Source: Branchiostoma floridae (taxonomy: Eukaryota > Chordata > Leptocardii > Amphioxiformes > Branchiostomatidae). Taken from it: 64,000 nucleotides of DNA. The DNA lies in the NCBI RefSeq assembly GCF_000003815.2, contig NC_049990.1, positions 18,041,199-18,105,198 on the forward strand, given 5' to 3'. The position numbers and the translations under genes were made by a program. Shown here piece by piece: positions 4,546 through 43,600 of this stretch. Below the pieces are notes generated by a model, which searched no databases, was not told the DNA's origin, and saw only the letters and a program-made list of their open reading frames with translations. How positions within the stretch are numbered: the stretch's first letter is position 1; every line of letters begins with the position of its first letter.

Positions 4546-4569
4546 TGGAACACTAGATGTGTTATAACG

Positions 4570-4651
4570 TATGACCTGCCGAGAAGAGCTGGATGACAAT
4601 GCCATGACTGTTGTGGTCCCGACCCTGAAGGAGGATCTTCTCTGGGACCAT
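4570..4651 (-). pseudogene. Ghost of exon 1 of the transmembrane collagen-lectin gene
   Basis: Read on the minus strand from 4,651, the sequence begins ATGGTCCCAGAGAAG and encodes MVPEKILLQGRDHNSHGIV. Exon 1 of the collagen-lectin gene at 34,574 encodes [19 protein letters not shown]. Similarity continues upstream of the start codon (4,651-4,700 against 34,575-34,645) and into fold-back repeat sequence (4,700-4,870 against 34,900-35,040). It stops about 27 codons into the exon, before the end of the transmembrane segment, so no functional product is expected. It shows that the lectin locus and its flank were copied into this arm. Confidence 0.75.
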
Positions 4652-4689
4652 CTTTATCTACCAGTGATGCGCGATCTGAGACAGACTAA

Positions 4690-5590
4690 ATGGCGTGATT
4701 TGCATGAACTCTCATAGGTCGTTCCCCATTGGTTCAGAGTGAACATGACAAACCTGCTTGTGTCTATTGATCTCTATTGTCAACAAGCGCTGATGCCTGG
4801 GGAGTTTTGGTGGGGTTTAGCAAAATTGTCTGACCTCGCGTTTAAACGTTTGGTCACCTGAGGTCAAGTCACGCACACGATTTCTCCTTACCTTTTGCCT
4901 GATGACATCGGATTTACACAAGGTCTTCTATTTGTGCTCTATATATGTTTTACCTCAGGTGATCAAACCTGTTTATTCTCGTAGCAACTCAGTCAATGCA
5001 TGCCTGAAACGCCGCAGTGTATTTCGAATGATTATGACCTTCAATCAATGCCTGAAGGCCGGCTAAAACATACCACTATGTAATTAGCTATCATGGTTAC
5101 ATGCTTCGGCCAAGCGCCTCTACCCTACGTAAAGAAACGATAGAATTTACAAGGACCAGCCGTTTGAAACGGCTTTGCTTTGTCGCTAAAACATTGGCTG
5201 CCCATACGACGAGTCGACAAGTCATGTAAGATCCTCTCCGTCCGTTCTTGGTAACATCTTTAGCAGATGACAGATAGTCGCCTGGCTTCAGGGGGTCCCT
5301 CAACACCCATGACACTCGTCTGGTCGGGGTACGGTCAAAACCGCTGTGAATGCTAGTTTAGGCTCTCTGTAAGGCCTATTGACGAGGTCTCCTTACCCTG
5401 TACCAGCTCGGTCTTCCCTGCTGTCCAACCTTCAGATCACCGTCCAAATGTTGTGTCTCCTCCCGCGGCTCTACCCTTCCCCTGCGAGGATAGGGGAATT
5501 CGAACAGCTGCAGTCCGGAGCGACCATGAAAGCTGAAGACCTGACGGGAATCTGGCTGCAGTACCGCTGGGAGCAGATGTGATCATTCAG
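4690..5590. repeat. Non-coding arm sequence with fold-back-family repeat
   Basis: This stretch matches 22,120-23,060 of the right arm in inverted orientation. It includes a block (about 4,795-4,870) related to the ends of the 34,870-37,340 fold-back region, recognisable by GGAGTTTTGG and the CACCTGAGGTCAA segment. Open frames here and in the right arm translate similarly, but they have no splice context or family match, so I treat them as non-coding. Confidence 0.55.
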
Positions 5591-10995: not shown

Positions 10996-12632
10996 TTTTT
11001 TTTTCTTTTCTTTTTTTTCCGTTTTTTTTCTGGTCTAGTTTTGAATAAAGAAAAAACAGTAGCCATGTGGCGAGGCCCTTGGAGACACTGCTCTGAACAA
11101 GCTAGTGGGCTAAAATGGTGCACCACAGCAAAATGTTTAGGGATTGTTTTCTCATCTGCATGTTGTGCCTCTGAAGTAGAAGTAAATTGGAGCAAAAAAT
11201 ACTGTAAGATGAAAAACATTTTATTATCTTGGGCTTCACGCAACCTTAGTCTTATAGGAAAAATAACAGTGCTCAAAAACCTTGTAGCTTCACAACTGTC
11301 TTACAGTTTTGGTGCACTTATACCACCGGATAGCTTCTTAAAGGATGTTAATTTGATGTTTTACAGATTTATCTGGAAAAGAGATAGAGTAAAGCGTAAT
11401 GTGATGGTTCAAGACTATTCAAAGGGAGGATTGAAAATGATAGATATAAGAATAATGCACAAATGTTGTTTATTACGATCGATAAAAAAATTGTTATCCG
11501 GTAGTGAAACTCCTACTCCTACATGGAAGAAGATACAACTGTATTATTTTAAGAAGTTAGGACCTGATCTTTGTATATTGAGACATAACTGCTCGGCAGT
11601 CCATGTGTCATCTAAAGATTCACTGTTGCCCTTACCTCTCTATTACCGTAAACTCATACTTACTTGGTATGAAATGAAACCTGTACAGAATGTCAATGAT
11701 ATTGAGGTAAATCAAGTAAATTGGCAATTGTTATGGAACAATGCTTGTATAAGTTACAAGGGCAACATGCTTTATTTTAAGAAATGGATTAGACGACATA
11801 TTCTTTATGTAAATGATATTGTGGATGATCAGGGTAACTTTATATCTTTTGATGATGTAAAAGCTATTGTTGGTAATGATGCACATGTATTACTACAGTA
11901 TCATGCTTTAATCAATTCAATTCCCAAACAATGGAAAGGTGTTTCTCGATTAGACAACGAAGAATCTCCTAGTATCAAACTTTGTGGTAAAGACATCCGC
12001 TTACTAGACTCTATCTTCTTTAAGAATTTCTGTATCATGCAATACCAAGCAGTCCCAGTCTCACAGAATTTCTGATAGAAACGATTTCCTATGTACGATT
12101 TTCGTTCCATTTCTTGGCATGTACTATGGAAATCTCCCTTCTTGACCACTAAAGAACCCAAACTTATTAGTTTGCAATGGAAGATCTTGCATAATATTTA
12201 TCCGACCAAAATATTGTTGCATAAGATGAGAATTGTAGAAAATAATAAGTGTATTTTTTGCGATATTATAGAATATATAGAGCATTTTTTCTTTGACTGT
12301 AAAATTGTTAAACCATTATGGGATTATGTGGAAAGTTTGTTTAGTTATTCCATATCTCTCACTGTACATGACATTATTTTTGGATACAACCCTCATATGT
12401 TAAACAAGTTTCGGTACATCAATGAACTGCTGCTAGTTGCGAAACTATCCATTGTAAAATATAAGTCTACAGTGTCATCCCCGAATTCACTATGTCAAGA
12501 TGCAGAAATCATCCTGAAAATTTTCAAATCAGAATGTATTCTTAGAAATATGATATAAGCTACATATTGTACAGCTTTCTGTGACATGCAATAAAGTGCC
12601 GTGACGAACACGGAATCAGGAAGAAAAAAAAA
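10996..12632 (+). mobile_element. 5'-truncated L1/Tx1-like non-LTR retrotransposon (dead)
   Basis: From about 11,035 an open frame encodes the C-terminal part of a reverse transcriptase ORF2. It shows the LGIVFS segment, then a SLIGKITVLKNL segment and FYRFIWKRDRVKRNV followed by GGLKMIDI, all typical of the thumb region of L1/Tx1-clade elements. A second block in the same frame (12,091-12,558) carries the tail motif C-X2-C with EHFFFDCKIV. TGA and TAG at 12,073-12,078 interrupt the frame. The 5' end is a T-rich run and the 3' end is an A-rich tail before the target-site duplication. The element lies in the right arm next to the palindrome centre and is absent from the left arm. Confidence 0.8.
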
Positions 12633-26700: not shown

Positions 26701-29700
26701 TGTGAAGCATCTTTAAATGCTGACCCTTTTTCTGTAAACCATCTTTAAATGCTATGCACTGCAGTTGTTTGCCAGCTGTAGCAACAATATGCATAGTAGA
26801 TAAATATGTAGTGTGAACTTTTCTTCCCTGATTTTGCACAGAATCTGAAGGCCCATCACCCACCCACATCACGGTACTGTGTAAGGGTCGTGTGTTCAAG
26901 ATGGGGGTCATCGATCAAGATGGCGAACCTCTCACTCCTGCAGAACTTAAAATGTAATTATGATTTAATAATAAACTACGGATTGCGTTTAATCCTACAG
27001 CTCCAAATCTCAAACCAAGACACTCAATACATAAGTCACGTAAGAAACTAGATAAGTTTTAAAAACGGCGGGACGTTTCAAACCTTCATCTACCAAAAAA
27101 CAACTTGTTCTGATACTGATTAATCTATTGACAATCCGAGACATTCGTTTCGGTCTTGAGTATCGTTCACTTCAGGTTGCCTCAGATCAACTGATCTAGA
27201 TTGATATTAATTGTCTCGTTTCTCTTTTCCAGACAACTGGAAGGCGTGAAACAACAATGTGAGAACGTCTGTGAGGGACCACACATCTCTGTGCTAACTG
27301 CGGGAAACAGGACGCAATGGGCAAAGGTTTGTTAAGTTTAGAGAAAAATATCCACGTTGGCGAGAATGTTTTAGACATGAAAGTACAAGAAATATGAAAA
27401 TAAAGCGATGTAAGTGCGCATCAGCATCAATTAAAAAAGAACACCACAAGTTATTTTTTGAAAGTCTTGATGGTTGTCGACGCCCCAAAAAAAGTACAAA
27501 AATATATCTTACCTGCACAGAATAGAGAGAAGATGACGGAGATGGGCCCAGTCAATGCTCATAACCTGTCCGTCATTGAGAAGAGTATCTTAGTCTTAGC
27601 GTTTGACGATGCCACGCCGAAGGACAGTGGGGAGGTAAGGCGATGTTTTGAGCGTACATCTTAGAGCGTCTCCATGGTTCTCTATGTAGCATTTAGCAAA
27701 TTTGCCAAATTGTTTTCGCTGAAAGTCTATCTTTTGCATACTCAGTACAACATACTGAGTCTAGATATTCTAGTGCCTTACACCGTATCCAGACTCTTCA
27801 CCAGACGTTGGCAGGCAGTGGCAAGAACAGATGGTTTGACCATGTCAACACTGAGGTGGCCTTCAAGAACGGTCTTTTCGCTGGCAACTTCGAGGTTCGT
27901 TTTTTTTTTTTTTTTGGAACAGATCTTGCACATCATACGCATTCCTGAACAATTATCATGTACCAAAATCAGTTAACATTATCTGCATAAATTAGTCATC
28001 ATATACGTTTCCTAACCTCTGTACACAATTGTGGACAAGGGTTTCTGTGCTTTAGTTTCCATAACGTTTATATTTTCAGCATACACCAGCAGATGGCATG
28101 GTGGCTGCTTTTTTGGGATACTTCGTTTTTGCTCAGTCACAGAGGATTGGACCAATACGGAAGGTATTCATACTTGAAAGCCATTAAATAGAATTCTGTT
28201 TACAGCGTATTGGGGGTATATATTGTATACCTAGACTGACTTGCTACTTGTTCTGGATATCCCGAATGTGCTTCGATAATTAATTCTAAGCACGTTTGGA
28301 ATAGAAGTGCATATAGCTTCTTCACGTGCGAGACCGGTTACTTCTCACTGCATCGCCACCTAGCGGTAGGAAGAAAAAAGTTAGTATTGTCCTGTGGAAG
28401 GTGGCAGAAGGACTATCGAAGCCTGAAGATGTGCAACAAGAATTGTATCATCCATTTGACTTGTGTACCGGCCTAATCATTGCGGACATCGTTACTTTCA
28501 CAGGACAAGGTCTCTGACAGGTCCGTTCCAGAACCAGAGGAGCTGATTTTCGCCATAGATGACGAGATACGTGATGAAATTATACATACACAGGAGACAT
28601 TCATTAAACAGGTAGATCACTACTCTTATCAATAACTATATCAAGCTGTAGACCTATACATTGAACACAGATTAACTGCAAAAGTACTATAGATGATATG
28701 ACGAACATAAGAAATGAGTCCATCATCGTTGTGCAAATACTGTGTGTAGATTGTAATATCATATGTTCGACCCAGGCTTCGGACTTGGAACTAGTCTGCC
28801 CCAGCTTCACAGACTATGGGAAGAAGTTCATCCGTAGTTTCAAGCTCCACCCGGACTACTACATACAGACTGCACTACAGCTGGCCTACTTCAGGCTACA
28901 TGGGAAGTAAGTGCAATAGGTGCAGACTAAAGCTAAGGGCACAACCCGCCGTACGTGCTATTTGTCCGTGCGTTTCTTGGGATGCCACGTTCGCTCCGTA
29001 TTTCTGAAAACGTCCAGGCTGTACAGGACAGGCGCGTCGCCCGTACTGGCACGTACGGGGGGCGAGTCCGCAGCCCGATGACACGACGGCGTGTCTGCGT
29101 GCTCCAAACTCCGTCGGATTCCGTACGAGTTTGTACGGAAGCGATACTTACCACTAGCTTACGGATCCCAAATATTGCCCACGTCTTTGCACGTGGGCAG
29201 CATGTATTTGCACATACGCCGGGTTGTGCCCTTAATTAGCTTAACGTGGTGCTATAGGCGACGAGATCAATATACTAGTATCCAAATATATCTAAATCAT
29301 GGTGACCTTGGGTGCGAAGTTAACTATTCACTAGTAACGTTTGGGGTGTTCCCATACTTTTCCTTCCCAAATCATGACGTCAGACCAGCTCCCACGCACC
29401 AGCCGGCGACGCTGCGGCAGTACTACCACGGCCGGACCGAGACTGTCCGGTCCTGCACCATGGAAGTGGTCAACTGGTGTAAGGCCATGATGGACAACAC
29501 AGTACCGGTATGCTGCTGCTTATTACTTGATTACATGTATGGCATATTGAACGAATTCTGGTGGTTCAAGCTATGTCCCAAAATAAATGTATTTTCGTCC
29601 AAAATATTGCCTATTAACCTAATATGCTGTATATAGGAATATATCCGTCAACACACTTCATATGATATCATGTTTGTTTTCTTCCCTTGTTAGATTCAAG

Positions 29701-31044: not shown

Positions 31045-31856
31045 GGCACCCATCACGGAAAATACAGCAATCATAATTTTACTGTTAAATTACAGTTCAT
31101 TGCTGCTATTTTGTTATTTAACATTCATAAGATTGATGTTACTTTGGATTATAGGCACAGCTGACCAGAATTATCTTAATTCATATAGTTGATTATGTCA
31201 ATGGTGCTTTAAAATTTCAGGGGTCAATTAATGCACTTGATTAAGTTGTTTTGATTGACTTTCTTCCTATTTTTCAAACATCTGTGGTCTCTCTATAATT
31301 TTGTTTTAAATTCAACGTCCACATATCGACTCATAAAGCTGTCAGAGGGAGAGTGTTCATTTTAGTTGTAAAGCCTTGAATTCAGCCGAAGTGGGCTGCC
31401 ACTGTATGTTGTTGTGTGTCGATCGATGACGTAAATAAACCATTCATTCATTCATCTGGGACATATGCAAAGCATGAGGGGCTCCTACGAGGCGGCTCAA
31501 TACGAAAGATGCAAATACACATGCAAATGCACATGCACATGCACACACTCACACACACATGTAAATGTACAAGCACACACACACACAAGAAAACAGAAAC
31601 ATAAGTTAACTCTCACAAACATTTTTATTGTCGGAAATTCATATCTTAAAGGCCACACAGCAAAAATGAACACAAGAAAGTTCCACTGTAAGAGGTTTAT
31701 TTGTTTCCAGACATTCTCTACAAACATGAAAGTATTGGAAATATACTTATATTTTGTCTACCATGTAATGTTATATTTCCATCTTTATTGTATGGAAAAT
31801 GAATCATGTAACTGATATTTGTGACATGACAACTAGCAGGTTGAGATCGCTTCTCT
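31045..31856. other. CROT 3' flank and 3' flank of the collagen-lectin gene
   Basis: These are the convergent 3' ends of two genes. For CROT, AATAAA occurs near 31,434. For the lectin gene, TTTATT at 31,624-31,629 is AATAAA on the minus strand. A (CA)n-rich patch lies at about 31,510-31,590. No exon is seen. Confidence 0.5.
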
Positions 31857-34574
31857 TCAGAGACAAGCTTGGATGTCGACCCCTACCCTAACCCATTGCG
31901 TATCAGCCCACGTGCGCATGCACACTTCAGCCATGGTTGTTGTAGCACGTTTCACATACGTGTGTATGCGTTCCTGACCAGCGTGGTGGTCAAGGTGGTA
32001 GAGACCGATATGGACGACCGGTACGCCAGGGAAGGCATTGCGGAAGCGAAAGATTTTGCAGACATCGCGGGTTCCGAGACCGGCATTGAGACTGTGGGGC
32101 GGTGCACCAGTGTCCACTCGTCCCTGGTCACCTGAAAGAATATCCAATGACATGATGTTATAGCTACTAGTAACTTCCTTTCCTTTTTAGAAAGACATTG
32201 TTTTTGTTATTTCTGAAAAGGAATAGCAGTACAGGATCGGTTTGTGAGAAAACTTATTGAGAAAAGGGATTCTTCCGACTTTGGATCAGTAGCTTATCAT
32301 TGTTTGTGAAATGTCTTGTAAAAATTTTCTCCTTCACGCAAGAAAAAAGGCATAAACATCAAGCAACATTTCAAATAATGTTTCACTGTGTTAAATATCA
32401 TGTCCACAACCCAATATGAAATGTTTTTATAATAAACTGACAAACACAAAGTGCCAATTCTTGAAAGATTCGGTTTCAAAGATGACGAAAAAATCACAAC
32501 ATCAGTAACAAGTATACTGAGTCACTCACATTGCCGGACGTGTGGACCGACTGGGCCCGGGGAACCCCTCTCTCCTTTGGCGCCAGGCAAGCCACGAGCA
32601 CCCCTGGGGCCGGCTGGGCCACGGTCACCCTTCTGTCCCCTGGGGCCGGGCAAGCCAGGGGGTCCCTGGTCACCCTTTTCCCCCTGGTGGAATGAAAAAC
32701 ATTTCTATATCAGGAAGGAAATCGAAATGTTGTCCGTGCTCTATCCCCAGTATCGCCATGCAAGTCAGACGGACCGGGAGCTCCAGTGTAAAGTAGAGTG
32801 GAACCATACCTCAAGCTACTTAACGTTACATCTTTCGTGGTCTAACAAGAAAACACCGAGAAGCACGGCGAGCCTTCAACAAAGACGTTCACTGAAAGAC
32901 CACACCGCCGCCAAGTCAAGCACAAGAAAGACACTCAGATACCTGAGTCACTGCCCACCACACCACCGAGAAAAGAGAATGAAGCCGGTTTGTGCGTGTG
33001 ACAGGCTGAATAAAAGTTCTTAGTAACAGGAACTATATGCGTCTGAAGAAGTGTTAGGACCCGGCCGGGTAGCTTTTGGAATCGAAAAATATTATATAAA
33101 AGGCAACAAAACACACAGAACGTAAACAAAATAGTCAGGAGCATAATTTGTGTATATTCCTTGGTAAACAGTCTCATTTTTCATTTCCGCAGACATCCCG
33201 GCCGGGGCCCGTTTAGGAAATGGAACCAAAGCCTTACTGTCAATATATACTGAGGGACGACTGTGGTGCAAAAGATGTTGACAGCTTGAAGTTCCTTCTA
33301 CTTCACAATACATAGTATCATGTGAAAAACACAATGTTCATTGTCTTTTCAATTATCGTTTTAAGCTTACCTTAAATCCCCGTGGTCCTCTCGGTCCTGG
33401 AAATCCCCTGGGTCCCCTGCACCTCGACGGGAGCCCCGGCGTGTTACACACTATGGATAGTTCTATTTGTAAAAGACGTCATACCGTTAACAGCAGAAAA
33501 ATCATTTTATACAACTGCTTTATTCTTGTGGGAGATTTGATAGAGATCTTAGACCAGAACCGCTAGATGTCTTGGTTTGAACTAGATCCGAACTATTTTC
33601 CTCTATCTTGGTCATAAAACCGTTAATACACAAACATATCTTGATCGATGCTTACTAGCACTCCTTTTCGACCTGCCGTGCAGTACATCTTCCAGTCGCC
33701 AGGGTGTGTCCTTCTCATCGTCCAAATCAACACTATCAGCATCACTGTCCGTAGATTCCGACTACAAAATAAAAGTAAGGATGAACATCATTAGGGCAGC
33801 TGGGACTATCCATTGAAGCGTAGCGTAAGAAACAATGAAGCAATACCTTGTTTGAGTGCTTACCCCAAAACCTCAAGTTTTTTCATAGGGCCTGCTTTAC
33901 AATTCAAAGAAAACAAGGGGTTGTCCAACTCCACCCACAGAACCCGACAACTCAAATCTGTCCTTCCGCCAGCTACACTGGTGAACTGAACACAATCTGA
34001 CCAAAATGGGAACGTTCACATATATATAGACCCCGGATACTGCACAACCCAACTCTGACGTCTGCCTATTGTCTATCCCACCCTTAGGCGAGACACTGGT
34101 TCAGGTCAAACTTCGAATCATTTCCAGTCTATAAAGATGTACATGTAACAACTATTTGTTCCACCCGAGTTCGCATCGATAGTTAGCTAAGCTGATAGTG
34201 GCGCCTCATTTGTGTCCACTGATTCCTTTATGTACGAATTTGCAACAACGAAATGGAAAAAAATGGATTCTTACTTCATTTTCTGCAGTCAGATCTTGAA
34301 GGCTGGTGTCTTCTTGGGTCTCAGAGTATGTGTTTTCGCCTTCTCTTTCTTTCTTCATCAAGTACACCTCCTCTCTCAGGTAGCGAATCTCCCCGCTTTG
34401 CAAGGCTACCTCGCCCAGCACCCTGTCCAGCACGGCCCGGCGTTCCCTCAGCTCAGCCCCCTGCCACAGCACCAGGCAGGCGGCAACCAAGAAAACACCG
34501 GCCGCCAAGAGCTGGATGACAAGGCCGCGGCTGCTGTGGTCCCTGCCCTGGAGGACGAGCTTCTCTGGGATCAT
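31857..34574 (-). CDS. Type II transmembrane collagen with C-terminal H-type lectin domain
   Basis: Five exons on the minus strand (34,275-34,574, 33,656-33,761, 33,371-33,450, 32,530-32,683 and 31,857-32,131) join in phase to 304 residues. Residues 1-17 are a short cytoplasmic tail, 18-37 a hydrophobic anchor ([19 protein letters not shown]), and about 40-75 a charged, heptad-like coiled coil. Residues 100-128 are acidic, then R-S-K-R at 130-133 is a furin-type site. Residues 141-207 are Gly-X-Y collagen with one short break. Residues 214-304 match the H-type lectin fold ([15 protein letters not shown], then [14 protein letters not shown]). The layout resembles membrane collagens such as XIII and XXV, but with a carbohydrate-binding head, so a trimeric, possibly shed, pattern-recognition molecule is likely. 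Ligand and function are inference. Confidence 0.88.
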
Positions 34575-34871
34575 TTTCTCTTAACAAACTGTCACCGATC
34601 TGCGACAGAGACGAAGTGGCGTGGGTTCTCAAATGTCGTGTCGGTGAGATGATCTTCTAGGTAGGCGATGTCGAACTTATGGTCTTGCACAAGTCTTCGG
34701 TCCTTTTTATACAGTTTTACACGTCTTATCCGTCATAGACGGTAGAAAGAAGGGAAAAACCCGCGGCGTATGTCCACCATTCTTCTATTGTTCAGTTTAC
34801 TATAAATATACAGCGACGTCACGTTTAGACATAAGCTGTCCAATTTTCCCTGTATTCTGTCCTAGTGATTC

Positions 34872-37338
34872 GTGACGTCACGGTCATAACGTCATCACCA
34901 AGCGCGCCCATTGGTTCAGAGTAAGGAGGAAAAGCCCTCCCGGTTCTATATTCGTATGGCCTTCAGCTGATGCCTGAGAAGTTTTGGCGGGGTTTGCAAA
35001 AACTGTCAACGTCACAGATCGAGATGGTTACCTGAGGTCAACACAAGTTTCCTCTAAACTTGCTTGGTACCGCAAAGCGAGAGGGGTATCTTGCCGAGAG
35101 TATTATACATGTTGGATATGGCATGGCAAGATGTTATTGATTTACACAAAATCTGCCTATGGCCATTTTTATTCGCATTTCTACCTATTTTTGTGCCCCG
35201 TCGTTTCAGACTAAGCTACACACACCTCCCTGTGACAAGTCACGCGCGAGTTATCTTTCTGTTAATGCATGACTCAATTGCAATGTTGTTTAAGTGTGCT
35301 GATCTGTAAGTAGCTCTCCTGTCCACGTATACTAAACTACTTCCTCCAAGCCCTTCGGTCCTGATTTGCAAAATCTCTTCACGTCACAGTTGACATGGTT
35401 ACCTGGGTCAGATTTGACCGTCTAACTGAGTGGGCATTATGGATACAGAGAGACATACATGTACATCTGGTACATTTTGACATGTATTTCAACCTGTTTC
35501 TTCCCATTGTTTTCGACTGCTGTGCCTCTCTGTATCCGTGACAAGTCACGCACTAGTTATATTCTGTCAATGCATGAAGGACTGTTCAAGTATACCACTG
35601 TAACTAAACTTATATTATTAGTTCGGATCGGTCACACATGTGATCAACTACAGAGGCGCTTGGAGGAAACACATTATAGACCACATGTGACAAGTCAAGT
35701 CAAGTTTATTGCACAACGATTGCATCAGGTACCGTGTATGGCAAATAACATGTATTACTAACAGCTACAAACTAACAACATTAGTATACCAATCTAACAT
35801 CATTAGTTAATAAAGAATATGGTGGTACAGTGTATTTCACATTGTGGCAGAGCCCCTCGGGCATTACGGATAACTTGTGCGTGAAGGATAACTTGTGCGT
35901 GACTTGTCACTGCGTACAGACACAGACTGGTGTGTCTAGCTCAGTCTGAAACTGACGGAATAAAAAATACAGGTAGGAATATAAGTAAAATGGTCAGGTT
36001 CCAAGCGTGTTAACCTGGCATATCTATATCTTACAATACCCACAATGCTGTCGGTAAGGTACCAGTCTTGCTTTGGTCAGAGTCAAACTGTCAGGAGGAA
36101 GCTTGTGTTGAAAAATCTCCAGGTAACCATGCCAACTGTGATGCAAAGAGTTTACGCAAAAGGAAACACGAAGGGCTTGGAGCTTGAGGAAACACGTAGT
36201 TGACCGTACGTGACCACAAAAGCTAGGTACAGAGTGGTACACTTTAACAGCCATTCATGCATTAACAGAAGGATAACTTGCGCGTGACTTGTCACGTACA
36301 GACACAGGCTGGTGTGTCTAGCTCAGTATGAAACTGGCGGGATAAAAAATACAGGTAGGAATATAAGTGAAATGGGCAGTTTTCAAGTTTGTAAACCTGA
36401 CATATCTATATCTTACAATATCCACAATGTCCTCGGTAAGGTACCAGTCTTGCTTTGGTCAGAGCCAAACTGTTTGGACGAACCTTCTGTTGAAAAATCT
36501 CCAGGTAACCATGACAACTGTGACGCAGAGAGTTTTGCAAATTGCACAAGGAAACGCGAAAAGCTTGGAGGAAACACGTAGTCGACCACACGTGACAATA
36601 AGAGCTAGTTACAGAGTGGTACACTTTAATAGCCATTCATACATTAACATAAGGATAACTTGTGCGTGACTTGTTACAGACATAGGGAGGTAGGTGTGTC
36701 CAACTCAATGGGGTAAAAAATCAGATCAACTAAAAATGGGCAGATTTCGTGTGAATCTTGCCACTATATCTTGCCATACCATGTCCATAAAGTGGAATGC
36801 CCTCGGTAAGCTACCCTTCTCGCTTGTGTTGACCAACTGTGAGGTGAACTTTGCAGAAGACCAGGCGCTTGGAGGAAGCTTGGACGCATTTGACCGCACG
36901 TGACCCCAAGAGCTAGTTGCTGAGCGGTACATTTGAACAGCCCCTGGGGCATTACCAGAAGGATAACCTGTGCGTGACTTGTCACAGACACAGGCTGGTG
37001 TGTCTAGCTCCGTCTGAAACGGCGGGGTAAAAAACAACAGATAGGAATACGAGCAAAAATTCGCAGATTTTGTGTAAATCTGACATTATCTTGCCGTATC
37101 CACAATGCTCTCGGCAAGATACCCTTCCAACCCTGCCAGAACCAAGCGGTTTGGAGGAAACTTGAGTTGACCTCAGGCAACCATCTAGATCTGTGACGTT
37201 AACAGTTTTTGCAAACCCCACCAAAACTCCTCAGGCATCAGCTGAAGGAAACACGATAATAGAAGCAAGCAGATTTTTTTCCTTCTTACTCTGAACCAAT
37301 GGGCGCGCTTGGTGATGACATAAGAACGTGACGTCACA
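34872..37338. repeat. 2.4-kb fold-back region with internal repeated blocks
   Basis: The ends are inverted copies. GTGACGTCAC followed by AAGCGCGCCCATTGGTTCAG at the left is matched by CTGAACCAATGGGCGCGCTT and GTGACGTCAC at the right. Inside, blocks of about 360 bp recur (35,870-36,300, 36,300-36,660, 36,660-36,970) with the signature ACTTGTCAC, ACAGACACAGGCTGGTGTGT and GGGATAAAAAATACAGG. A tail-like AAGTCAAGTTTATTGCACAA lies at about 35,698-35,720. No coding exon is recognised. The outer part is related to 4,700-4,870 and 22,900-23,050. Confidence 0.7.
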
Positions 37339-40689: not shown

Positions 40690-43600
40690 ATGGCTGACAC
40701 AAACACCAAGAAAGTCGTCTACGGAATCGTTGGCAATATTCCTGCACATTTTCACTCTGCGGATCTCAGAAACTACTTCTCCCAGTTCATAGAGAGCGGC
40801 GGCTTCGACTGTTTTCACTTCAGACATCGTCCGGAGGCGAGAGACGGAGATACAGCGGGGGAAAACAATGATGAAGAAAGTGTTTCGCAAGAAGGGAAGG
40901 GGGAGGGGGGCAAGTTCGTAGGTTCGGGAACAAATGTTTCGAAAGTAAGTGGAATTACGGACATTTTACCGTCTACGTCTACATCTGAACAGAAAGTCTT
41001 GACAGACTATAGAGCAACTGTGGATAGCGAGACTTCAAGAGATCCAAGCAGAAGTAAGACGAACAGAAGAAAAACTTTGTGCTGTGTTGTACGCGTTGTG
41101 GAACAGAGGTGGGACGAACTAGTGAAGATGTACCACGGGAAACACTGGGTGGACAGGCGGGGGGACTACCTCCGGCACCGGGCTACCGTCAGGAGGGTCA
41201 GGCTGGCAGAGGAAGGTGCGATAGACAGAAATCACACTGCTATATGATTTGATATCATATGTTGCTTTGATTGTGATGATTTCATTTTATAAGCGCTTTC
41301 ACAGAGGTCAGCATGCATGTGCAGCGAAAGGAATTCTAGGTACCGGTAATATGTCAAAGGCAAAGGCCTCAAAAAAAGAAAACAGTCCTTGTCTCGACCA
41401 TTGTTGCGATTTGCATAACAACGTCCAGACAGGTTCTGTTTTCATTTTGTGGGCCTTTACCTTTGACATATTATCTAGAATTCCTGTCGCCGCACATGTG
41501 TTCTGATTTCTGTGAAAGGGCTCATTGCTGATCAGATATTGCAGATTTTATAACATTTTATTGTCAACACTTACACTACAGGTTTTTCTTTCATAATTTT
41601 TGTTTGTAATTTTTTTCAATCAAATAAATGTTCTTGTTCTGGAATAGCACGTTTGGGAGTAATTTTCTTCTGAAAAAATCTTTAAAGTGACACAAAATGC
41701 ATTGTCCCAATCTTTTCCAGCTTGTATCTATCACTTCAGCCAAAATCTTTTTATTTTAATTAAATGATAGAATCCCTACTGAGTAATGACCAATTTTTTT
41801 CAGGAGCGTAACCAGAAACACAACATATTTTTTTCTAGGCCTTACAAACAATGTCCAATGTTTCAGGTTCTGATGCATTGAAGTACCAGACAAGAAAGGA
41901 AGTTGAGCAAAGACGGAAGAGGAAAGATGGAGAAACCATCAGCCAATCAGAGCTGCAGAAGCTCATCGAGCTCCACCCGCCCAACGTCATGCCTCGCGGG
42001 AACGTGGGAACGCCAATCAAAGTGTTTCTAGAACTGATCCGCACATGCAGGCTCCCCCCTATTCTCATCCACAAACTTGGACTGGTCTTCCCTTCCACTG
42101 GGTCTAGCAGGAGGTATGGGAACGTACCATTTGACTATGGGGGGAGTGTGAGGGAGGGAAGCATGGTGCTGACTGCTACAGGGGAGGAGCTGTCTGCCGA
42201 GGTGGGGTTTGTGGAACAGCAACAAAGAAGGAGGGAAGAAGAGAAGGAGGAAAGGAGGGAACAGGAGAGACAGCAGAAGGAGGAGGAAGATAAAGCAGAT
42301 GAGTCTCACTCTGATGATGTAAGTTTTAATAAGTGTGTACTGTATTTAAGGAGTACATATACTTAACTCCAGAAGTGGGCCTTCCATTAGATGTCTTGAT
42401 TCTGCTTGTTACAGGAAGTGTTTCTACCGGTAGATGCGAGTCAAATCTGTGTCTTCTTGTAACTTCACAGAAATGTTACTCAGAAACGCAAATTGCAAAA
42501 TACATGGAGATGTCAGTGAAATACATGTACCTATCTTGTGCCTAATAGCATTAGCATGGTTACGAAATTGGAAAACTAGTGATGTGCAGTACATATCACT
42601 GCATAGTTATAAAATGAATGCTGCGTGCAGTGTGTTAAACTCTCAAGTTATCCCCTTCCAACAGGACGATGACAGGTGTGAGGAATGGGAGCGCCACGAG
42701 GCCCTGTACGACGACGTGACCAAACAGGGGCGGAACAAGGAGCGACTGTTTGAGGAGGAGATCGAGCTGAAGTGGGAGAAGGGCGGGAGCGGGCTGGTGT
42801 TCTACACAGACGCGCAGTACTGGGACCAGCTCAGGGGGGACTTTGATGAGAGGACTACTGATGACTGGGATGTAGACATGAGTGTGTACTATGATCCAGG
42901 TAAGGTATAGAGGACTACTGATGACTGGGATGTAGACATGAGTGTGTACTATGATCCAGGTAAGGTATAGAGAACTACTGATGACTGGGATGTAGACATG
43001 AGTGTGTACTATGATCCAGGTAAGGTATAGAGGACTACTGATGACTGGGATGTAGACATGAGTGTGTACTATGATCCAGGTAAGGTATAGAGGACTACTG
43101 ATGACTGGGATGTAGACATGAGTGTGTACTATGATCCAGGTAAGGTATAGAGGACTACTGATGACTGGGATGTAGACATGAGTGTGTACTATGATCCAGG
43201 TAAGGTATAGAGAACTACCGATGACTGGGATGTAGACATTAGTGTGTACTATGATCCAGGTAAGGTATAGAGAACTACTGATGACTGGGATGTAGACATG
43301 AGTGTGTACTATGATCCAGGTAAGGTATAGAGGACTACTGATGACTGGGATGTAGACATTAGTGTGTACTATGATCCAGGTAAGGTATAGACAACTACTG
43401 ATGACTGGGATGTAGACATGAGTGTGTACTATGATCCAGGTATGGTCATCGTATTTGCCTTTCTTACCATCTTTGTTTATTACCAGTAGTACATGAAAAA
43501 TGTTTTTTGTTCTATCTGTATGTTTGTCTGCTTGGCAGTACTTGCCTATGTTTCCAGATATTTGTGGTCAGCATAACTTAAGAACCTTCATATGGATATG

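Follow-up and report, generated by a model that had tools for sequence, protein, structure and literature searches.

The window analysed here, a stretch of 64,000 nucleotides of the Branchiostoma floridae genome (C12:18041199-18105198), contains a gene on the minus strand that runs from 34574 to 31857. Enumeration of GT and AG sites gives five in-phase exons encoding a protein of 304 amino acids. This is as the original prediction had it; the coordinates were right, and all four introns are GT-AG, with phases 0, 1, 0 and 1. The gene and its flanking signals are laid out as follows.

Exon 1, 34275-34574, minus strand: 300 nt, encoding a 17-residue N-terminus, one hydrophobic segment, a four-heptad repeat and the start of an acidic linker.
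Exon 2, 33656-33761, minus strand: 106 nt, encoding acidic linker that ends in RSKR-SA, a furin-type site.
Exon 3, 33371-33450, minus strand: 80 nt, encoding Gly-X-Y triplets 1 to 5; 33462 is an alternative acceptor.
Exon 4, 32530-32683, minus strand: 154 nt, encoding the other 16 Gly-X-Y triplets and VRQC.
Exon 5, 31857-32131, minus strand: 275 nt, encoding an H-type lectin domain and the stop codon.
TATAAAAA, 34704-34711, minus strand: candidate TATA box, beginning 137 nt upstream of the ATG.
AATAAA, 31784-31789, minus strand: candidate poly-A signal; its first base is 68 nt past the stop codon.

An in-frame stop codon lies three codons 5′ of the ATG. In all, 11 splice combinations across the five exons stay in frame, and the 304-residue model is among them. 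Scored with splice-site consensus matrices, its donors rank 6, 10, 1 and 2 among the 185 GT dinucleotides of the gene, and the acceptors of exons 2, 4 and 5 rank 3, 2 and 5 among the 165 AG dinucleotides. The acceptor of exon 3 is uncertain; by the same matrices the site at 33450 scores 1.43 (rank 61) compared with 5.09 (rank 19) for that at 33462, which is 12 nt upstream. Use of the latter gives a protein of 308 amino acids that retains all the features listed above. If exon 4 is read unspliced it terminates in QCE and a stop codon, which may allow for a collagen isoform that lacks the head. Intron 4 contains neither AATAAA nor ATTAAA. The genomic tests that were run support this being a real gene.

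The N-terminal half of the protein has a single hydrophobic segment (peak window residues 18-36), with a KD19 maximum of 2.77 at residue 18, while the best KD19 window starting after residue 45 reaches 0.81. The net charge is +1 both before and after the segment. It is followed at residues 49-76 by a four-heptad repeat in which the a and d positions are LVVQILVM. The coiled coil of the original prediction is borne out as far as these heptads go, the label being given by the heptad count. The acidic linker then occupies 55 residues (78-132), with 19 acidic and 4 basic side chains, and leads into the furin-type motif RSKR at 130-133, N-terminal to the collagen that begins at 148. Anchor, acidic linker and RSKR occur in the order that had been proposed. 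A second match to the furin pattern, RERR at 43, lies directly after the membrane segment. The 304-residue protein contains seven cysteines, of which one is inside the membrane segment.

The collagen comprises 21 unbroken Gly-X-Y triplets (residues 148-210), over which the Pfam Collagen family scores 41.2 bits (cut-off 27.2). Exon 5 by itself matches Pfam H_lectin (PF09458) with 30.4 bits, and the spliced protein does so with 27.0 bits (cut-off 24), so that a domain search of the spliced protein recovers both of the families that had been called, and the last exon has the lectin profile ascribed to it. In this search, taken to E values of 1, the spliced protein has no domain besides Collagen and H_lectin, hence no C-type lectin. 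In the PDB the match is to discoidin-2 (discoidin II), with E values of 7.5e-4 for exon 5 and 0.0038 for the whole protein, and with 34% identity between exon 5 and discoidin II across the aligned part. A two-sequence profile that includes discoidin II matches discoidin I at 1.6e-12, and Helix agglutinin weakly (E 0.064). Searched against the 2154 open segments of at least 20 amino acids in the window, the lectin profile matched exon 5 alone, which is itself in the profile, and the reversed-sequence control in the window gave zero matches.

The residues of the putative sugar site were compared in an alignment of 28 H_lectin domains of the genome with discoidin II. The partial domains L027 and L028 are left out of the residue counts, and seven matches lie outside the alignment input. 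Asp47, Arg54 and Trp74 of exon 5 are invariant in 26 of 26 counted domains; one of them, L012, lacks its N-terminal part. Several rows are near-identical, and the 26 domains therefore do not count as independent tests. In the numbering of the two-sequence profile, the Arg and Trp align with R63 and W83 of snail agglutinin, which we take to be sugar-loop residues with sugar-binding roles; His84 is presumably a sugar contact. In the excerpt of PMC6363177 the distal loop network of agglutinin comprises three loops, and Arg63 and Trp83-His84 lie in two of these. The residue following the conserved Trp is variable among the 26 domains (H 6, S 5, A 5, E 3, G 2, V 2, and D, T and N 1 each). It is Ala in the gene under study and His in its paralogue, described below. 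Alanine at the His84 position is within the range of the family, yet the loss of this presumed sugar contact still speaks against strong GalNAc binding. The single-sequence AlphaFold2 prediction for the lectin exon had a pLDDT of 46.9 and contained a long helix foreign to the fold, and we regard it as uninformative.

The paralogue, L009 (C12:18002506), is about 70 kb away on the opposite (plus) strand, and is convergent with the window gene. Its exons have the same order, i.e. membrane segment and coil, acidic linker with RSKR, collagen, and lectin. A relic of exon 1 is located between the two genes.

L009 exon 1, L009:685-1053, plus strand: membrane segment and coil.
L009 exon 2, L009:1640-1751, plus strand: acidic linker with RSKR.
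L009 collagen exons, plus strand: three exons.
L009 lectin exon, L009:4412 to the stop codon at 4698, plus strand.
Relic, window 4565-4657, minus strand: truncated copy covering the promoter and the opening 26-29 codons of exon 1; not a gene.

Eight splice models fit L009, giving proteins of 795-806 amino acids. In all eight there is one Gly-X-Y run of 178-182 triplets whose register is kept across two introns, so that by these models the stalk is more than eight times longer than that of 21 triplets. Most of the run is encoded by a collagen exon (L009:2226-3565) that is a 27-base repeat of 49.6 copies with 87% matches, and that is possibly variable in length between individuals. Taking a collagen rise of ~0.29 nm per residue, the two stalks would measure about 18 nm and 155 nm. 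Of the two collagens the short one is basic (12 K+R and 4 D+E) and the long one net acidic (61 K+R and 78 D+E), and for this reason charge is unlikely to be a common function of both. Collagen lectins that bind MASPs carry the motif Hyp-Gly-Lys-Xaa-Gly-Pro, with Lys in the X position. The short collagen has no G-K-X-G; the long one has a single GKPG, which is preceded by Gly and followed by Lys and so is not the motif.

Between the window gene and L009 the protein identity is 70% in exon 1 (100 codons), 71% in exon 2 (35 codons, with RSKR kept) and 81% in the lectin exon (90 codons). The corresponding dN/dS values of 0.37, 0.41 and 0.48, obtained by a crude method that counts few changes between two genes, are consistent with constraint on each of these exons. 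The coil of L009 has an insertion of 14 residues, i.e. exactly two heptads, and its membrane segment has three extra residues. The two lectins are identical at 90% of the 67 codons that start at CKIF and diverge most in the N-terminal loop, and the junction between collagen and lectin, VRQC to DLGRVDTG, is common to both genes. The similarity continues upstream, ~700 aligned bases that take in the proximal promoter and the first part of exon 1 being 72% identical. L009 scores 35.1 bits with H_lectin (cut-off 24). In a tree of the lectin domains the short and long pair group together with 99/100 support; the branches are 8.85 to the pair and 9.8 to discoidin II, and placement among the others is meaningless. 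The claim that lectin and collagen exons belong to one gene is upheld as far as genomic DNA goes, since L009 repeats both the order and the junction. To judge from this independent copy, the architecture is confirmed.

A search of the genome (513,431,437 bases) gave 34 H_lectin matches, all over the cut-off, and none of 14 control genomes has a match. The score of the window gene is the second weakest of the 34. A collagen run, taken as at least six Gly-X-Y triplets in the locus, was found for two of the 28 matches examined, the window gene and L009, by a criterion that distant collagen exons could escape. Besides the window gene, those examined are the 27 of 33 that fall within loci of 8.5-9.9 kb, six being outside; the flanks are mostly ~4 kb, with some of less than 1.5 kb on one side, and two loci (L012 and L013) have runs of N. 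We note separately that 22 of the 34 matches form a cluster at 4.24-4.78 Mb of C3, with one more elsewhere on C3. The cluster includes loci L010-L016, L019, L020 and L025, and some of the protein sequences are identical.

Searching the genome with exon 1 returned six matches: the window gene, two pieces of L009 exon 1, the relic, and two weaker matches with E values of 0.0023 each, at L032 (C18:12778499-12781702) and L033/L035 (C12:21067006-21077000). Both weaker loci have an alignable anchor-coil frame with a furin-type motif downstream (RAKR and REKR), and their reading frames include a very short collagen frame with GMPGRDCPCG. No H_lectin match of the genome list is near either locus, and Pfam searches of six reading frames of L033 and L035 gave no head over the cut-off. 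These two weak matches, with no listed H_lectin neighbour, suggest that a module of anchor, coil, furin site and collagen is older in the genome, and that the H-type lectin may be one of its heads.

Several other features of the window can be recorded here. Just upstream of the lectin gene there are two copies of a 382-base repeat (35883-36674), with inverted pieces at 35186-35599. At 42849-43446 a 60-base unit is repeated ten times (97% matches) across the 3′ end of an open frame together with a donor-like CCAG|GTAAGG, so that an apparent exon-intron border is tandemly repeated; the open frame stops just past the first donor. On the plus strand two open frames at 28665-29633 match choline/carnitine acyltransferase, and the remains of a retrotransposon with a zf-RVT match lie at 12079-12555.

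On balance we think it likely that the gene encodes a trimeric type II membrane glycan receptor, releasable by furin and built like collectin-12 or gliomedin with another head. The original description of a 'cell-surface or sheddable trimeric glycan receptor' is one that we too infer from the parts. If the gene is expressed, the short N-terminus would lie in the cytosol and the one hydrophobic segment would anchor the protein in type II orientation. The juxtamembrane coiled coil would gather three chains, and the collagen helix would then zip from N to C, presenting three H-type lectin domains whose fold is itself trimeric in known relatives. A trimer is indicated by the coil, by the collagen and by the family of the head, in which the snail agglutinin consists of two homotrimers with binding sites at the top of each (PMC8431231, excerpt). 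The sugar site would be formed by loops carrying Arg268 and Trp288, and the conserved Arg and Trp point to a glycan ligand, most likely of Gal/GalNAc type and borne by microbes or by cells of the animal itself. Cleavage after RSKR, just ahead of the collagen, by a furin-like protease may set free a soluble collagen-lectin trimer, cysteine-headed, and such trimers could assemble into larger bundles. For N-to-C folding and furin release the precedent is provided by collagens XIII, XXIII and XXV, in which a furin site lies just before the first collagen domain (PMC7848082, excerpt). For membrane and soluble forms with an opsonin-like use it is collectin-12, which occurs in both forms (PMC7511233, excerpt). 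The receptor may have an immune role. The L009 protein would do likewise on a stalk of ~180 triplets in place of 21.

The receptor reading is supported by the Pfam matches, the single hydrophobic segment, the heptad a and d positions, RSKR, the 21 triplets, the shared plan of L009 with its Gly-X-Y register kept over two introns, the dN/dS values of 0.37-0.48, the two-heptad insertion and the invariant Asp47, Arg54 and Trp74 of exon 5. Against it we count the alanine at the snail His84 position with the second-weakest lectin score of the 34, the +1 charge on either side of the hydrophobic segment, which may be a cleaved signal peptide instead of an anchor, and the QCE-stop of unspliced exon 4 with the head-less isoform that it might allow.

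These last points bear on other explanations, which are compatible with one another and with the receptor. It can be tentatively entertained that the protein is a membrane collagen with a structural or adhesive task, as are gliomedin and collagens XIII and XXV, its lectin being a trimeric cap that would bind a host protein or a matrix glycan and organise tissue, with no immune role. The N-terminal half fits the membrane-collagen plan, two more loci have an anchor-coil exon with no listed H_lectin match nearby, and the window gene has Ala in place of His84; but the sugar-loop Arg and Trp are kept in 26 of 26 aligned domains, and L009 has His at the variable position. It is rather unlikely that the protein is secreted like a collectin, the hydrophobic segment being a signal peptide and there being no membrane form. 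The equal charges flanking the segment do not settle its orientation, yet the ~17 residues ahead of this long segment exceed what signal peptides usually have there, and the presence of a coil and furin site between segment and collagen follows the membrane-collagen plan.

We give little credence to a logic of the class A scavenger receptor kind, where the lectin is secondary and polyanions are bound by the basic collagen, which the acidic linker may keep covered until the protein is cleaved. The excess of basic residues in the short collagen and of acidic residues in the linker would suit this, but the long collagen is net acidic, so a basic stalk is not common to the pair. Finally, exon 4 followed by its QCE-stop could be the end of a membrane collagen (VRQCE) that has been misjoined to a neighbouring gene for a discoidin-like lectin without a signal peptide; discoidins lack signal peptides in general. 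Such a false joining of two unrelated genes is very unlikely because L009, 70 kb away, repeats the same exon plan and the VRQC to DLGRVDTG junction; moreover the donor and acceptor concerned rank second of 185 GT and fifth of 165 AG, and the intron between them has no AATAAA or ATTAAA.

Returning to the receptor reading, the gene pair provides a natural test of stalk length, with the same anchor, the same cleavage site and a near-identical head on 21 or ~180 triplets. More speculatively, the type II membrane-collagen module (anchor, coil and furin exon) may have taken an H-type lectin head in this lineage, giving a pair of glycan receptors that differ chiefly in reach (~18 and ~155 nm) and have different sugar loops, the 27-base repeat of the long stalk being able to grow or shrink; the furin-cut forms might then serve the animal as collectins assembled from different parts. 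We hold this scenario to be possible but doubtful. A simple account in which such a protein fills a gap is opposed by the excerpt of PMC11312191. While its discussion has collagen-bearing ficolins lost in Cephalochordata, MBL with collagen is found there, and amphioxus is named in its introduction as one of the animals that have collagen-bearing ficolins.

The original prediction found the combination unfamiliar. This stands in that no membrane collagen with an H-type lectin head was found in the titles, abstract openings and excerpts of the open literature searched; domain-architecture lists may hold the architecture, and it would not surprise us if it were already there without a paper. The searches described next gave no sign of a viral or bacterial source. 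Kinship with phage tail fibres that combine collagen and H-type lectin was considered and rejected; there the two are separate genes, gp17 and gp19 (PMC3094311, excerpt). A tblastn search of phage records with exon 5 gave five records with a best E value of 2, and a PHROGs search gave none. Nine pattern matches in viral contigs and 29 in prokaryote genomes included no relative, and matches to the NCBIfam bacterial collagen-like adhesins were far below their cut-offs.

Among known proteins, collectin-12 (CL-P1, SRCL; COLEC12) is alike in having an anchor, coiled coil, collagen and C-terminal carbohydrate domain (PMC7511233, excerpt), but its head is a C-type lectin where that of the window gene is H_lectin. 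The MACITs (collagens XIII, XXIII and XXV) have the type II plan that is proposed here and a coiled coil (PMC7848082, excerpt), and their single N-terminal membrane segment and furin motif N-terminal to the collagen recur in the window gene. By contrast, their collagen is divided into several domains bordered by non-collagen parts, and they have no lectin head, while the window gene and L009 have one unbroken run, of 21 and 178-182 triplets respectively. Gliomedin and the colmedins, and ectodysplasin A, are type II proteins that join collagen to a functional domain and have a secreted ectodomain, with olfactomedin and TNF-like heads respectively in place of the H-type lectin (PMC7848082, excerpt). 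The gastropod HREPs likewise fuse an H-type lectin to another extracellular module, for which the partner named in the excerpt of PMC8878817 is immunoglobulin-like domains, with no collagen. The cnidarian nematogalectins differ in having a signal peptide and a lectin of another family, and in being nematocyst proteins. Discoidins I and II, Helix agglutinin and the octocoral lectin have the same head domain, and are soluble lectins not known to carry collagen or a membrane anchor. Collagen-stalked glycan receptors such as the collectins, ficolins and collectin-12 are textbook innate immunity, with heads of C-type or fibrinogen type. What we describe is a new combination of known parts and not a new kind of system, in which the logic of the collagen-stalked receptor would recur in the lancelet with an unrelated head.
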